Position numbers and translations under genes: made by a program. From NCBI GenBank assembly GCA_016779945.1, contig JADHMR010000012.1, forward strand, positions 1 to 32,857: a stretch of DNA of 32,857 bases, read 5' to 3'. This DNA comes from Bacteroidia bacterium (lineage in GTDB: Bacteria; Bacteroidota; Bacteroidia; NS11-12g; UBA9320). Below are positions 15,469 through 28,830 of this stretch, piece after piece (the stretch's first letter is position 1; every line of letters begins with the position of its first letter). The notes under the pieces are model-generated. The model ran no database searches. It saw only the letters and a program-made list of their open reading frames with translations, and was not told the DNA's origin.

Positions 15469-18297
15469 TTACTTAATTTTTAGACTATACCCTAGTTTGA
15501 ATGTTCTCTGTGGCTGACGTTGAGAAAAAATCTGGTCCTCAGCATTAAAACCACGATAAACTTGAACAGGTATATCGTTTAAGATATTTGTAACAGCAAA
15601 TGAAATTTGAGACCTTTTTTCCTTACCTATGGAGTAAGAAGATTTGAAGTTTAAGCTGTGAAAAGATTCAGTATAAACATCCAGTAAACGACCAATTCCA
15701 ACAATCGATAATTTAGGCCCTTGAACATTGTATGAGAAATTCGCAATAAAACCAGATTCTTTGTCATTGTAATTTAAACCAAAATTAATAATGTACGGAG
15801 CTTGCCCCTGCATTTCTCTTTTATCATCGAGGGTTTGTCCTTCACGTAATTCATTTGTTTTACCAATTATTTCGTTAGGAGTCATTTCTACTTGTGAAAG
15901 TATGTATGAGAAGTTACTTGTTACTGAAAGTTTGTCTGTTATAAAATTAAGCGACTTTTTAACTTCTAGCTCTGCACCAAAAACATCTGCACTCAACGCA
16001 TTCCTTGGAGTGAAATTAGTAGGTGTCTCAGGTTTATATACTACTATTTCGATAGGATTATTAAAATGTTTATAAAATCCACTCACAGAAATTAATTCTC
16101 CTCTTTTCATGAATTTCTCAAAACGTAAATCCAAATTAGTTATTTCAGTCTGTTCCAAATCTAGATTACCAATAAATGTTCTTCCAGAAATTGGATCATA
16201 AATTTGAGCCAATGATTTTTCTTTAAAGGACGGTCTTGCAATCGTTTGTGATGCAGCCAATCTTATGTTTACATCTGATGTTGCTCTGAATATAAAACTT
16301 GCAGAAGGTAAAACATTTAGTTCGTTTAGTACATTTTCATTGGAGTAAACCTCATTATTTGTATTTTCTCCAGTGTAAAACATATCTGCTTTTTCAACTC
16401 TTAACCCGTAAATTGCAGTTGCTCTTGAACCTATGGGGAGCTCATTCATTGCATAGGCACCCATGACATTCATTGAAGACACAAACTCATTAGATTTAAT
16501 TGGTTCCCCAAAAACAGCATATCCTTCATCTGATTCTGCACTATACAAGTATTCATTGAAAATCTGATTTGGATCACCATTCAAACTAAAACTACCGACA
16601 GGCTGAAACACATATTGTAAAACTCCAAAATCTCGGTGTTTATAATTGTGAGCCATTCCAAATTTCAACTTGGAAACTTTATTATTTTTAATAAAAATAT
16701 TTCGTTCTACATCAAACTTACTATTGATGCTTTGTTCACTTAAATTTCTATAAAGCCTTTTTATCTCTGAACCTGCACCTACATTGAATTTATAGCCTTC
16801 GTCGCTAACAGAAAGAGCTGTAATTTTCATATCAGGTTCGTGATTGGTAGAAATTGAGGGCGATAATTTCGTGGTAAATTTCCAAACAGAGTCTTTTTTA
16901 TACTCATGTTTAAAAAATAGATTAGTGAGGGTACGCTGGTTATAATATAAAATGGTTCTATCAAGTGTAGCTCCAGCATCACCATAAGGATTAGCAATAT
17001 TTTCGTACATCAACTTTGAGGATTTTTTCACCCCATTTCTTGTATGAAAAATCGATGAACTAAAACTATGCTTACCTGCCTTAATCGAGCCATTAGCCAG
17101 TGTGCTCCAAAGCACCTCATTTTCTCCTACACTTCCATTATTTTTTTCAGCTAGGGTTAATTCATTTACAGTTTTGTCTGCATTTTTAAGATAAGTTTCG
17201 AAAATTACGTTATCAAAATAACTGAAAATATTGCTATAACCTGTAGCTACATTAAAACCATATGTCTTATTTTTTTTGTTGAATTGATTTCCGTAATCCA
17301 ACGAAAATGAAGTATTAAGCAAACTACTTTGTGTTAACACATCCATATTTTTACTAAATGCATTAGCATTGCTTTCTGCTCGTTGAGCACCGCCACCAGA
17401 CTGAGTATATTCTGATTTTGGTATCACCTTAGGTTCAGAAAAAGGGAGTTCTCTTGATGATCTACCAAAAGCAAGAATATCACCAGATGTTGATTCTTGA
17501 CTTAAATAATTTGAATTAAAATTCATTGCTGGGTTATACCCTATTCCTAATGAAAAATTTAAAACTTCCTTAGACTGAAAATCTTTGGTTTGTATATCTA
17601 CCCAACCGCCCGTAAAATCTCCTGCTAGGTTTGGTGTAAAACTTTTAAGTATTATGATATTATCAATCAAATTTGTTGGGAAAATATCCATTTGAACTGT
17701 ATTTCTATCAGGGTCTAAACCTGGTATTTCCATGCCATTGAGAACTGTTTTGGTGTATCGATCACCTAGCCCTCTAATGAAAAGGTATTTACCTCCGTCA
17801 ACACTCACACCAGTTACTCGACTTGCTGCACTAGCTGCATCTCCATCTCCAGCTTTTTTGAATGCCTGAGCAGAAACTCCATCCATTAAATTGACCGATT
17901 TCTTTTGTGCAACAATTAATGCATTTTCTGAATTGGTTGCTTTTTTTACTCGAATAGTTACTCCACCTTTCACTGCATCTTGAGCTTGAACACCAACTTT
18001 AATGACTCCCAAATCAACAGCCTGACCCTCAACAAGTTTAACATTAGGTATAATTTTGGTATCATAACCCATCAATTTGATTTGAATGTCATGAGAGCCT
18101 ACCATGAAACTTGCTTTAAATTTTCCCTCGGTGTCAGAGTATCCTCCCCCATTAGATGTGGGTGATGTAATAGTTGCACTTACAAGTGGCTCACCACTTG
18201 ATATATCTAAGATCTTTCCTGAAACCTCAACTCGTTGTGCTTTTGCAGACCAAGAGAAAAAAAGAAAAATGAAGATTATACTTCCTACTGCTTTCAT
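15469..18297 (-). CDS. TonB-dependent receptor with N-terminal carboxypeptidase-regulatory-like domain
   Basis: Signal peptide, CarbopepD_reg_2-like N-terminus, plug domain SVDGGKYLFIRGLGDRYTKTVLNGMEIPGLDPDRNTVQMDIFP, C-terminal beta-barrel strands. Confidence 0.9.
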   Translation of the reverse strand: MKAVGSIIFIFLFFSWSAKAQRVEVSGKILDISSGEPLVSATITSPTSNGGGYSDTEGKFKASFMVGSHDIQIKLMGYDTKIIPNVKLVEGQAVDLGVIKVGVQAQDAVKGGVTIRVKKATNSENALIVAQKKSVNLMDGVSAQAFKKAGDGDAASAASRVTGVSVDGGKYLFIRGLGDRYTKTVLNGMEIPGLDPDRNTVQMDIFPTNLIDNIIILKSFTPNLAGDFTGGWVDIQTKDFQSKEVLNFSLGIGYNPAMNFNSNYLSQESTSGDILAFGRSSRELPFSEPKVIPKSEYTQSGGGAQRAESNANAFSKNMDVLTQSSLLNTSFSLDYGNQFNKKNKTYGFNVATGYSNIFSYFDNVIFETYLKNADKTVNELTLAEKNNGSVGENEVLWSTLANGSIKAGKHSFSSSIFHTRNGVKKSSKLMYENIANPYGDAGATLDRTILYYNQRTLTNLFFKHEYKKDSVWKFTTKLSPSISTNHEPDMKITALSVSDEGYKFNVGAGSEIKRLYRNLSEQSINSKFDVERNIFIKNNKVSKLKFGMAHNYKHRDFGVLQYVFQPVGSFSLNGDPNQIFNEYLYSAESDEGYAVFGEPIKSNEFVSSMNVMGAYAMNELPIGSRATAIYGLRVEKADMFYTGENTNNEVYSNENVLNELNVLPSASFIFRATSDVNIRLAASQTIARPSFKEKSLAQIYDPISGRTFIGNLDLEQTEITNLDLRFEKFMKRGELISVSGFYKHFNNPIEIVVYKPETPTNFTPRNALSADVFGAELEVKKSLNFITDKLSVTSNFSYILSQVEMTPNEIIGKTNELREGQTLDDKREMQGQAPYIINFGLNYNDKESGFIANFSYNVQGPKLSIVGIGRLLDVYTESFHSLNFKSSYSIGKEKRSQISFAVTNILNDIPVQVYRGFNAEDQIFSQRQPQRTFKLGYSLKIK

Positions 18298-18316: not shown

Positions 18317-18363
18317 GCAATGTTCATTTGAATAGGTTATCTAAATGTTAAGTAATTATTAAG
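18317..18363 (-). promoter_or_regulatory. Putative operator of the TonB receptor: three 8-mers spaced by 3 nt plus AACATTGC
   Basis: Minus strand CTTAATAA-TTA-CTTAACAT-TTA-GATAACCT (18363..18334) then N10 and AACATTGC (18324..18317). Confidence 0.5.
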
Positions 18364-18410
18364 CAATTCTTTGTGTATAATTTGTTAAATCTCGTCAACA
18401 CAGATATAAC

Positions 18411-18441
18411 AAAAAAAGCATCGCAGAAACTGCGATGCTTT
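18411..18441 (-). terminator. Rho-independent terminator of the beta-helix lipoprotein gene
   Basis: 12-bp stem AAAGCATCGCAG-AAA-CTGCGATGCTTT; T run follows on the minus strand. Confidence 0.85.
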
Positions 18442-18475
18442 AAACATATGAGTAGATTTATTAATTAGTACTTAA

Positions 18476-19765
18476 TTAAAAATCAGATAATAATCCTTTT
18501 GCATCTGCAAGAGTCCATCCAACAAACTCAGATTTATCAGCACCCCCATCTTTGGCAGTTACTAATTTATTACCTGAAGAAACAAACTTATCATCTGAAG
18601 CAGCAGCATCAGCACCGTCAGCTTTATCAGCGAAGATATCTTCTACAGAAGACCAAGTAGTTGTATTTCCGTCTGGCTCGCCATCTTCGTCTAATGTCCA
18701 TGCAGTAGAGTTGAAAGAATTGTTAGTAATGTTGAGAGCTCCTGAAGAAAAGTTAGAAGACACAACTGGCTCATCCAATTCAACATCAGCATTTTGATTG
18801 AATCCAAAGAAGTAAAGACCGTCAACAGTTCCTCTAGCTTTTGATCTGAAATCAGCAAACTCACCTTGAACTGGACTTCCCATCAATGAACCATTCTTTA
18901 GTGTGAAAGAACCTTCAGAGTTTTCAGAACCTTCAGGTCCGTCAATTTCTAAACCGTGGTCAGAACTTGCTCCACCTATGTAAATGAAGTTATCAATAGT
19001 ACCAGCATAAGCCTGATCGATGTCGTAAGCGTCATCTCCTTGATAGATAACTATTGCATCGTCAATGTTTACTGTTCCACCAAAGCATTCGATACCATCA
19101 TCAACATTAGCTACTACTTCTACGTGGTGGATAGTAGTACCTGTACCAACACCACCAAGAGTTAAACCATTGATCTCATTACCTTCACCGATTAAAGTAC
19201 CTCCGTGACGGATAGAAACGTAAGTAATTGTACCTGAGTTATCAGCAGCGTCAGGACCACCGTAGTTTCCTTCAACAACATCAGCTGGAATTCCTTCAAT
19301 CTGCTCTGTAGCTCCTGTTTTTGGAGAAGTTGGTGCATTACCTAACACGATAAGACCACCCCAGAAACCAGTTGCAGTAGCAGGATCTAAATTTGCTCCA
19401 AATTTCTCTCCTAATGCGATTTCATCAGCAATTGAAGTAAAGATAATTGGATTTTCTGCAGTTCCTGCAGCATTAATTTTTGCTCCTCTTGCTATTACTA
19501 GTGATGAAGCATTTGCACCTGTTCCAGCTTCGCCTTTAACGATTGTTCCAGGTTGGATTGTTAATGTTACCCCACTTTTTACTATAACTCTTTCTTTAAG
19601 GATGTGAAACTTATCAGAAGACCAAGTTTCATCTGCAGTAATAAATCCTGCGTGCTCAACTGAATTTGAAGGAGCCTCAACTGTAATAGTTTGAGTTTCG
19701 TTATCATCACATGCAGTAAAGAAGAAGAATGATAGAATTAAATAATAAAATAATGTTTTTTTCAT
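18476..19765 (-). CDS. Putative lipoprotein with right-handed beta-helix-like repeats
   Basis: Lipobox-like N-terminus FFFFTACDDN; repeats such as VTLTIQPGTIVKGEAG..SSLVIARGAKINAAGTAENPIIFTS and LTLGGVGTGTTIHHVEVVANVDDGIECFGGTVNIDDAIVIYQGDDAYD. Confidence 0.75.
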   Translation of the reverse strand: MKKTLFYYLILSFFFFTACDDNETQTITVEAPSNSVEHAGFITADETWSSDKFHILKERVIVKSGVTLTIQPGTIVKGEAGTGANASSLVIARGAKINAAGTAENPIIFTSIADEIALGEKFGANLDPATATGFWGGLIVLGNAPTSPKTGATEQIEGIPADVVEGNYGGPDAADNSGTITYVSIRHGGTLIGEGNEINGLTLGGVGTGTTIHHVEVVANVDDGIECFGGTVNIDDAIVIYQGDDAYDIDQAYAGTIDNFIYIGGASSDHGLEIDGPEGSENSEGSFTLKNGSLMGSPVQGEFADFRSKARGTVDGLYFFGFNQNADVELDEPVVSSNFSSGALNITNNSFNSTAWTLDEDGEPDGNTTTWSSVEDIFADKADGADAAASDDKFVSSGNKLVTAKDGGADKSEFVGWTLADAKGLLSDF

Positions 19766-19793
19766 TTCGTATAAATTTTAATAGTTTGTTAGG

Positions 19794-19828
19794 GCAATGT
19801 TGGACTCGTTATATTATCCTTTTGTTAA
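19794..19828 (-). promoter_or_regulatory. Putative operator of the lipoprotein gene, same composite motif as at 18317-18351
   Basis: Minus strand TTAACA-N4-GATAA-N12-AACATTGC with identical internal spacings. Confidence 0.5.
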
Positions 19829-19856
19829 CTAAAATTTATTAAATCTACAACATTGC
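19794..19856. repeat. 9-bp perfect inverted repeat GCAATGTTG / CAACATTGC, 45-nt spacer
   Basis: GCAATGTTG at 19794-19802 and CAACATTGC at 19848-19856. Confidence 0.6.
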
Positions 19857-26448: not shown

Positions 26449-28830
26449 GTGCGTAAGCTATATTTCATAACTCTAATTACTATAAACCTCGCTATTAATG
26501 CTCAAATTCAAATTGTAAACAATAATTTGGAGCATATCTCTGGTGTGCTACTAATTCAATCTAGTAAGATAATTGGTATTTCTGACCAATATGGGAAAAT
26601 TAATATAGACACTTCTTCTAAAGAACTAGACAATTTATTTCTGTCACACAAAAACTATTATCAAAAAGAACTCACGCCTGAAATTTTACAAAGCAATACT
26701 ACCATTATTCTGACTAAAAAGATAAACACATTTGACCCCATTGTCGTTTCTAGTGGCAGGAATATTCGTTATAAGAATGATATCGCATTGCTCTCACAAA
26801 GAATAGATAAAAAGAAGATTGAACTATTTCTCCCTCAAACCTCGGCAGATCTTCTCAATGTAGACAATAACATTTATATACAGAAAAGCCAACAAGGAGG
26901 AGGAAGCCCAATTATACGTGGATTTGCTACAAATCGAATACTATTAGTTGTTGATGGAGTTAGAATGAATACCGCTATTTTCAGATCTGGAAATGTACAA
27001 AATGTTATTTCTATCGATCCATATACCGTTGAAAGCACAGACCTGATTTTTGGTCCTTCAAGCCAATTTTATGGCAGTGATGCAATCGGCGGAGTACTCA
27101 ATTTCACAACTATAAATCCAGAATTTTCAGAGGAAGGTGTGACCCTAAAAACAAAAAATAACTTCAGATATAGTTCTGCGAATAATGAAAATACTTACCA
27201 CACACAATTTCAGCTTAGTGGACGAAAAATAGCATCAATCACGAGCTTCACATATAGTAAATTCGGTGATTTGAGAATTGGAAAAAAAGGAAATGAGGTA
27301 TATGGCCGTCCCGACTATATTTCTACTGAGAATCAATTAGACACCATTATCCCGAATACTGATGAAAGCATACAAATTAATAGCGGTTATAGTCAAAAGA
27401 ATTTTTTACATAAAATCTCATTTAAACCTAATTCTAATCTAAGAGTCAATTATAATTTTCATTATAGTGAAACATCAAATATCCCAAGATACGATCGACT
27501 TATTCAGCGAGATGAATCTAATAAACTATACCATGCGGAATGGTATTACGGACCACAAACTTGGATGATGAATAATTTAGCATTGAAGTACACAAAAAAA
27601 CACGTATTGTTCGATCGTATTAAATCAACTATTGCTCATCAAAAATTTGTTGAAAGTCGGAATACTCGAACGATATATTCAAGTAATCTAAAACAAAGAG
27701 AAGAACAAGTCAACGCTTGGAGTCTGAATACAGACTTTATCAAGCACATTAATACCAAAACTCAAATAAATTACGGCTTAGAGTACGTATCAAATCTCAT
27801 ACAAAGCTCTGGTAATCAAACAAATATTAACAGTAATTCACTACAACCCATCACTTCTCGGTATCCTGATCAATCAACTTGGAAGACTGGCGGTATTTAT
27901 TTTAATGTTATCCAAAGATGGAATAATCATGCTATAACAGAAGGTGGATTAAGGTACAATATTGTTGGAATGAATGGACAATTTGATACTTCATTAACAT
28001 CCTATCCTATTTCAAATTTCAACATCATAAATCAGGCAATAACAGGGTCTATATCTCAATTAATAAAGAGAAGATTTGGCTCAATAAGTTTTATTTTATC
28101 AACTGCCTTTCGTTCGCCAAATATCGATGATATCGGTAAGACGTTTGATAGTAACCCTGGATTTGTTACCATTCCTAACCCCAATCTCAAACCAGAATAT
28201 GCCTATCACGCTGAAGCTAATCTAGACTATAATATTTTCAAAAATGTCAAAGTTCAAAATTCGATTTTTTATACTTACTTAGATCAATCTATTAGTTTGT
28301 CCAACACTACGTTAAACGGACAAGATAGCATACTTTACGACAACTCATTTAGTCAAGTGCAAATGCTTACCAATGAACAATTTGCATCTGTTTTAGGAAA
28401 TCAAATTACCTTGAAATACACGCCTAATGAGTTTATCTCACTAAAAACTACCTATACTTTTTTAGCCAGTCAGTCAAGTTCTGGAAATGCCATAAGACAC
28501 ATTACTCCAAATTTTGGTGGGACTACACTCATGTTAAATTACAAAAAGTTTGATATGTCGATTTACAGTATTTATAATCAGAGATTTAATAATAGTCAAT
28601 TTTCCAACTCAGAAAAAAATAAAACACAGTTTTATTTGAGAGATAAATTCGGTTTGGCCTATTCTCCAGCTTGGTACACTTTAAACTTTAAATTTGGTTA
28701 TTATCTGAATACAAAGACCAAGTTAAACTGTGGAATAGAAAACGTAACAGATAAAAGATATAGACCGTATAGTTCCAGACTAACCGCTCCAGGAAGAAAC
28801 ATCATACTTGCAATGCAAGTAAAATTATAG
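26449..28830 (+). CDS. TonB-dependent receptor, heme/hemoglobin-receptor-like (GTG start)
   Basis: Signal peptide; plug QKSQQGGGSPIIRGFATNRILLVVDGVRMNTAIFRSGNVQNVISIDPYTVESTDLIFGPSSQFYGSDAIGGVLNF; C-terminal barrel. Confidence 0.9.
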   Translation: MRKLYFITLITINLAINAQIQIVNNNLEHISGVLLIQSSKIIGISDQYGKINIDTSSKELDNLFLSHKNYYQKELTPEILQSNTTIILTKKINTFDPIVVSSGRNIRYKNDIALLSQRIDKKKIELFLPQTSADLLNVDNNIYIQKSQQGGGSPIIRGFATNRILLVVDGVRMNTAIFRSGNVQNVISIDPYTVESTDLIFGPSSQFYGSDAIGGVLNFTTINPEFSEEGVTLKTKNNFRYSSANNENTYHTQFQLSGRKIASITSFTYSKFGDLRIGKKGNEVYGRPDYISTENQLDTIIPNTDESIQINSGYSQKNFLHKISFKPNSNLRVNYNFHYSETSNIPRYDRLIQRDESNKLYHAEWYYGPQTWMMNNLALKYTKKHVLFDRIKSTIAHQKFVESRNTRTIYSSNLKQREEQVNAWSLNTDFIKHINTKTQINYGLEYVSNLIQSSGNQTNINSNSLQPITSRYPDQSTWKTGGIYFNVIQRWNNHAITEGGLRYNIVGMNGQFDTSLTSYPISNFNIINQAITGSISQLIKRRFGSISFILSTAFRSPNIDDIGKTFDSNPGFVTIPNPNLKPEYAYHAEANLDYNIFKNVKVQNSIFYTYLDQSISLSNTTLNGQDSILYDNSFSQVQMLTNEQFASVLGNQITLKYTPNEFISLKTTYTFLASQSSSGNAIRHITPNFGGTTLMLNYKKFDMSIYSIYNQRFNNSQFSNSEKNKTQFYLRDKFGLAYSPAWYTLNFKFGYYLNTKTKLNCGIENVTDKRYRPYSSRLTAPGRNIILAMQVKL

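Follow-up and report, generated by a model that had tools for sequence, protein, structure and literature searches.

In the 32,857-nt stretch of Bacteroidia DNA analysed here, hereafter the window, a gene for a surface lipoprotein and one for a TonB-dependent receptor follow each other on the minus strand, and each is preceded by the same composite motif. The locus raises the question of whether the two genes are under common control and, if so, by which regulator and in response to which signal. An initial annotation had proposed PHO-box-like repeats, possibly read by a PhoB/PhoP-like factor, and a phosphate- or nutrient-starvation uptake module.

The lipoprotein and its TonB-dependent receptor

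The features of the locus are collected in Table 1. The lipoprotein has no match to any Pfam family, and thus no SusD-type Pfam domain as in SusCD/PusCD systems, and no sequence relative among solved structures; the cysteine of its lipobox (C19) is invariant in 22 sequences. Its AlphaFold model is confident (pLDDT 89.4) and the top matches of a fold search with this model are mostly parallel beta-helices, at weak scores; the two results agree with the beta-helix lipoprotein described in the initial annotation. The receptor is composed of CarboxypepD_reg, Plug and beta-barrel domains and resembles TIGR01782, below the cut-off of that family. A second TonB receptor, of heme/hemoglobin-like type, is encoded in the window at 26449-28830.

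Table 1. Features of the lipoprotein/receptor locus; positions are those of the window.
Feature	Position	Strand	Basis
TonB-dependent receptor with CarboxypepD_reg, partner of the lipoprotein	15469..18297	-	Domain search; neighbouring genes
AACATTGC, putative -7 element of the receptor promoter, 12 nt past the last half-site core	18317..18324	-	Flavobacterial -7 likeness; distant orthologues
PHO-box-like direct repeats before the receptor, CTTAATAA-tta-CTTAACAT-tta-GATAACCT (three 8-mers, 11-bp period)	18334..18363	-	Sequence; relatives; matrix score 24.7
Intrinsic terminator in the lipoprotein/receptor gap	18415..18441	-	12 pairs, then Ts
ElpS-like surface lipoprotein, 429 aa, lipobox Cys19, predicted parallel beta-helix	18476..19765	-	Alignment; model; fold search
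AACATTGC, putative -7 element of the lipoprotein promoter	19794..19801	-	Sequence; orthologue alignment
PHO-box-like direct repeat before the lipoprotein, GTTAACAA-aag-GATAATAT	19811..19829	-	Sequence; element here in 30/30 close orthologues (three weak)

Most of the relatives searched have matches to one or both genes; where both were located they are adjacent and co-directional, usually with the lipoprotein first. A neighbouring TonB-dependent receptor gene, as expected for lipoproteins of the ElpS/FI-FIII kind, is found in the window as well. ElpS is a phosphate-starvation lipoprotein of Caulobacter (PMC2996285); compared by description, Caulobacter ElpS/CC0171 and the window pair have in common a lipoprotein and a TonB receptor side by side, but the former lie beside a type II secretion cluster, and none is seen at the window locus. 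A Sphingomonas protein shares 37% identity with the window lipoprotein (238 aligned columns); its gene has a TonB receptor gene and a type II secretion cluster as neighbours, and in this organism the pair precedes the secretion genes, which is the arrangement published for Caulobacter elpS. The window receptor shares 27% identity, over 886 aligned columns, with one encoded on an Alteromonas plasmid next to phoBR and a pstS-type gene; the order there is phoB, phoR, the gene for a phosphate-binding protein (pstS-type), the pair and ExbB/ExbD/TonB. In F. johnsoniae the lipoproteins FI and FII, which lie beside TonB receptors, and FIII are among the most phosphate-responsive products induced at low phosphate, and FII is located in the phoBR cluster (PMC8115612). 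Compared by description, FI, FII and FIII (PUSIII, PUSIV) are, like the window protein, beta-helix-type hypothetical lipoproteins, FI and FII being accompanied by TonB receptors; two F. johnsoniae lipoproteins are described downstream of their receptors, whereas the window lipoprotein is upstream. The pair appears to belong to a kind of lipoprotein/TonB-receptor pair that is known from phosphate-starvation loci, with Caulobacter ElpS/CC0171 and F. johnsoniae FI/FII as examples. Caulobacter CC0171 is reported to be constitutive, unlike elpS (PMC2996285), and this counts against the PHO-box reading discussed below.

The shared element and its conservation

The composite motif TTAACA-N4-GATAA-N12-AACATTGC described in the initial annotation is exact at 18351..18317 and 19828..19794 of the minus strand, ahead of start codons at 18297 (receptor) and 19765 (lipoprotein) as annotated; also exact, at 18363..18334, are the three 8-mers of the receptor promoter, CTTAATAA-TTA-CTTAACAT-TTA-GATAACCT. 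With up to three mismatches the two sites are the sole matches in the window, where shuffles predict 0.07, and the genome of the window species (G000; 2.24 Mb, 91% complete, all genomes used being drafts) yields one extra match, with three mismatches and within a response-regulator gene. At the stringency used the two sites are the only ones of G000; looser matches, all of them inside long open frames, were put down to chance. In the window species a perfect 9-bp inverted repeat, GCAATGTTG/CAACATTGC (19856-19848 and 19802-19794), flanks the lipoprotein element; it was not seen in the near relative G009.

The likeness of the two regions had been called unlikely by chance. This holds for matched runs of at least 5, whose score of 19 is equalled in 1/1000 shuffles, but not for plain 35-nt identity of the two intergenic regions, which is equalled in 191/1000 shuffles, is not significant and was dropped as evidence. 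Taken by themselves, the two window sequences make a moderate, suggestive case; the weight is carried by conservation across species.

Phylogenetic footprinting upstream of the lipoprotein gene in relatives gives (T/G)TAACA-N5-nTAAYAT-N12-(A/T)TTGC(A), and the cross-relative consensus is TAACA-N6-TAAYAT-N12-(A/T)TTGC. This refines the motif as first described: the basic unit is a direct repeat of 11-bp period with the core TAACA/TAAYAT, mostly 19-46 nt from the start codon. Conservation before orthologues, named earlier as a check, is evident: the element precedes the lipoprotein in 30/30 close orthologues, at a matrix score of at least 15.5 in 29 and of 8.7 in G109, and is weak in three (G109, G094 and G118); the scores of the 19 sites that served as training data are partly circular. 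The matrix was trained on lipoprotein promoters only, and the window receptor promoter, which is outside the training set, provides an independent test with a score of 24.7. Among 22 further lipoprotein loci (20 used neither for the matrix nor for the scan), 12 have a match that at most 1/100 shuffles reach, in most cases 20-35 nt ahead of the start codon; two of the 12, G028 and G114, had also come up in the pattern scan. The matrix thereby picks the lipoprotein promoters of distant species too. Several more distant homologues show no match at this strictness, which is counted against the PHO-box reading. Coincidence of two AT-rich upstream regions could account for a 35-nt identity equalled so often by shuffles, but not for the run-based score or for conservation over dozens of species; it is refuted for the lipoprotein element by this conservation, the receptor element being itself conserved in five species, and its overall probability is practically negligible.

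Before the receptor, an element of its own occurs in the window species and in G003, G007, G009 and G014, where the gap to the lipoprotein measures 168-183 nt (scores 19.5-30.9), and the third half-site is kept in 5/5 species with a receptor element of this kind. Elsewhere among the relatives the two genes are 31-139 nt apart, a spacing that is either too short or gives negative scores on the receptor side. With the receptor element confined to these five species, the second promoter would seem to be a lineage-specific trait. The proposed co-regulation of both genes, through two separate elements, would be special to this five-species subclade; the other relatives have a single element, on the lipoprotein side only. 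The intrinsic terminator annotated between the two genes is indeed present, and the simplest reading is that in these five species an operon with one promoter would have been split into two units that terminate separately and answer to the same control.

The trailing AACATTGC is most likely a -7 promoter element, outside the regulator site. Flavobacterial -7 boxes have the form TAnnTTTG, with a variant TAnnTTGY (PMC9723704); ATTGC/TTTGC fits them in sequence and position, TTTGC is found at the same spacing in distant orthologues, and the spacing to the start codon agrees with flavobacterial leaders, which are short (median 24 nt). At least two direct repeats with an 11-bp period directly precede the core promoter, at a constant distance of 12 nt from the putative -7, and the element is, by sequence, a predicted PHO box built into the promoter. 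Cyanobacterial PHO boxes, bound by SphR, consist of CTTAACCT repeats with 3-bp linkers, and in E. coli the PhoB boxes are located 10 bp ahead of the -10 (PMC1906773). The window element shares with both the 8-bp direct repeats, the 3-bp linkers, the 11-bp period and the place just upstream of the -10/-7, and its core is nearly identical to the cyanobacterial CTTAACCT-type core; unlike them, it belongs to another phylum and is followed at a fixed 12 nt by a Bacteroidota -7 (TTTGC/ATTGC) in place of a sigma-70 -10.

The resemblance of AACATTGC to a -7 box would also suit a strong constitutive sigma-A promoter, perhaps copied between the genes, in which no regulator takes part and the repeats reflect either AT-rich chance or a -33 element; in some species the initially transcribed stretches resemble each other (e.g., TTGCAGTATA in G014), and plain identity of the two regions, as reported above, is not significant. 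However, conservation extends beyond the -7 part: the half-sites keep their 11-bp spacing in different families and in front of phosphate genes, and the occurrence of just two sites in a whole genome is unlike a general promoter, making this explanation highly improbable.

Phosphate genes in relatives and candidate regulators

A pattern scan of 30 relatives returned 56 matches, compared with 18 for a reversed-pattern control. Sites were found before pstS in six genomes, before Porin_O_P in G011, G016 and G023, before polyphosphate kinase (ppk) in G030 and G032, before a purple-acid-type phosphatase in G118 and before an S1/P1 nuclease in G008; behind Porin_O_P a Na/Pi cotransporter is confirmed in G016 and G023, while G011 has a similar-sized unscanned gene there. 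G114 carries the pair within a pst-phoU cluster: a TonB receptor is followed by the element, the ElpS-like gene, a phosphate porin, PstS, three open frames and PhoU, the three frames being assigned by position only, two to PstC/PstA and one to PstB. When the matrix was applied to genuine pstS promoters, 7/18 had a match reached by 0/200 shuffles, the one in G026, at 145 nt, being doubtful, versus 0/12 for PstS-like paralogues, a weaker group used as negative control (Fisher p = 0.024); about half of the genuine pstS promoters have no match at this strictness, and this is counted against the PHO-box reading. The same element is found before phosphate-acquisition genes of the lineage, in relatives. 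Occurrence before pst and pho genes had been named beforehand as a check of the PHO-box idea, which gains support from these sites together with the 11-bp repeats and orthologue conservation; binding by a PhoB-type protein and a response to phosphate would be its predicted consequences. In B. fragilis PhoB controls pst, and a polyphosphate kinase and a polyphosphate-selective porin are tabulated as phosphate-responsive (PMC3547664).

A conserved PHO-like element also precedes a small CarboxypepD_reg protein (L149:1609, L150:5502, L142:2050 and sites in L139, L144 and L145); in several genomes this gene is followed by thioredoxin and a protein of about 80 aa, and it is divergent from a lipoprotein-like gene of about 530 aa. 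This operon has conserved sites and no known phosphate role, and it counts against the PHO-box reading.

Two PhoB-type regulators with kinases are encoded in G000, designated C100 and C91, so the host has candidate regulators. The C100 regulator, at G000:C100:4605-5276 with an adjoining histidine kinase, is the nearer to named PhoB (37% vs 29% for C91), and both fall below the TIGR02154 cut-off. Direct-repeat binding is common to regulators of the OmpR family, and the repeats could be sites of another member, such as C91, that answers a different signal, for instance general nutrient or envelope stress, with the phosphate genes forming a part of its regulon. The presence of a second full-length PhoB-type regulator in G000 and the sites before the CarboxypepD/thioredoxin operon are in line with this, as is the Riemerella anatipestifer PhoP regulon, which is wide and includes non-phosphate genes (PMC9603813). 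Against it, the identifiable targets in relatives are mostly phosphate genes and the PstS-like paralogues lack a site, so that this alternative is unlikely. R. anatipestifer PhoP binds sites with the core TTTAACA, a TonB receptor promoter being among the bound targets (PMC9603813). The two cases are alike in a related Bacteroidota host, the same core and a PhoB/PhoP-type regulator; a search of that paper's text found no 11-bp repeat, no -7 spacing and no phosphate-centred regulon (PMC9603813).

A predicted phosphate-starvation promoter

The locus very probably carries two PHO-box promoters, through which a PhoB-type regulator would control a lipoprotein/TonB-receptor uptake pair induced at low phosphate. 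Each gene would be under its own PHO-box promoter, and a PhoB-type regulator, most likely C100 with its adjoining kinase, would bind the 11-bp-spaced TTAACA-like half-sites, which are fixed 12 nt upstream of the -7, in the place usually taken by the -33 element. When phosphate is short, the bound regulator would recruit sigma-A RNA polymerase, and the ElpS-like lipoprotein and the TonB-dependent receptor may jointly bind and import, or help to mobilise, a scarce phosphorus source.

PstS (TIGR02136) was not detected in 19/19 genomes of the genus searched (G000-G018), and Porin_O_P was not found in G000 with one query, run without a positive control; because neither was found there, the element marks only this pair in G000. 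TIGR02136 PstS is present in many other genomes of the family, order and class. A Na/Pi cotransporter gene of G000 (C109:10983-13133, L161) has in its promoter a TAACT-N6-TAATAT repeat at the wrong distance to a -7-like element, which is not claimed as a site. As G000 lacks a detectable PstS, PhoR may not receive its usual signal through Pst-PhoU. A more speculative extension, rather doubtful at present, is that in the window species, a member of a Pst-less marine genus, the PHO-box regulon is reduced to the lipoprotein and the receptor, each with its own promoter, that the pair is the main dedicated phosphorus-scavenging system, and that PhoR senses phosphate without Pst.

No PHO-box promoter definition of this kind for Bacteroidota was found in the open-access papers searched; the consensus provides a concrete one, TAACA-N6-TAAYAT-N12-WTTGC. 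Through it, regulatory sequence would, besides proteomics, connect phosphate starvation with a widespread, uncharacterised lipoprotein/TonB-receptor pair, and Pho regulons could be predicted in uncultured marine flavobacteria.
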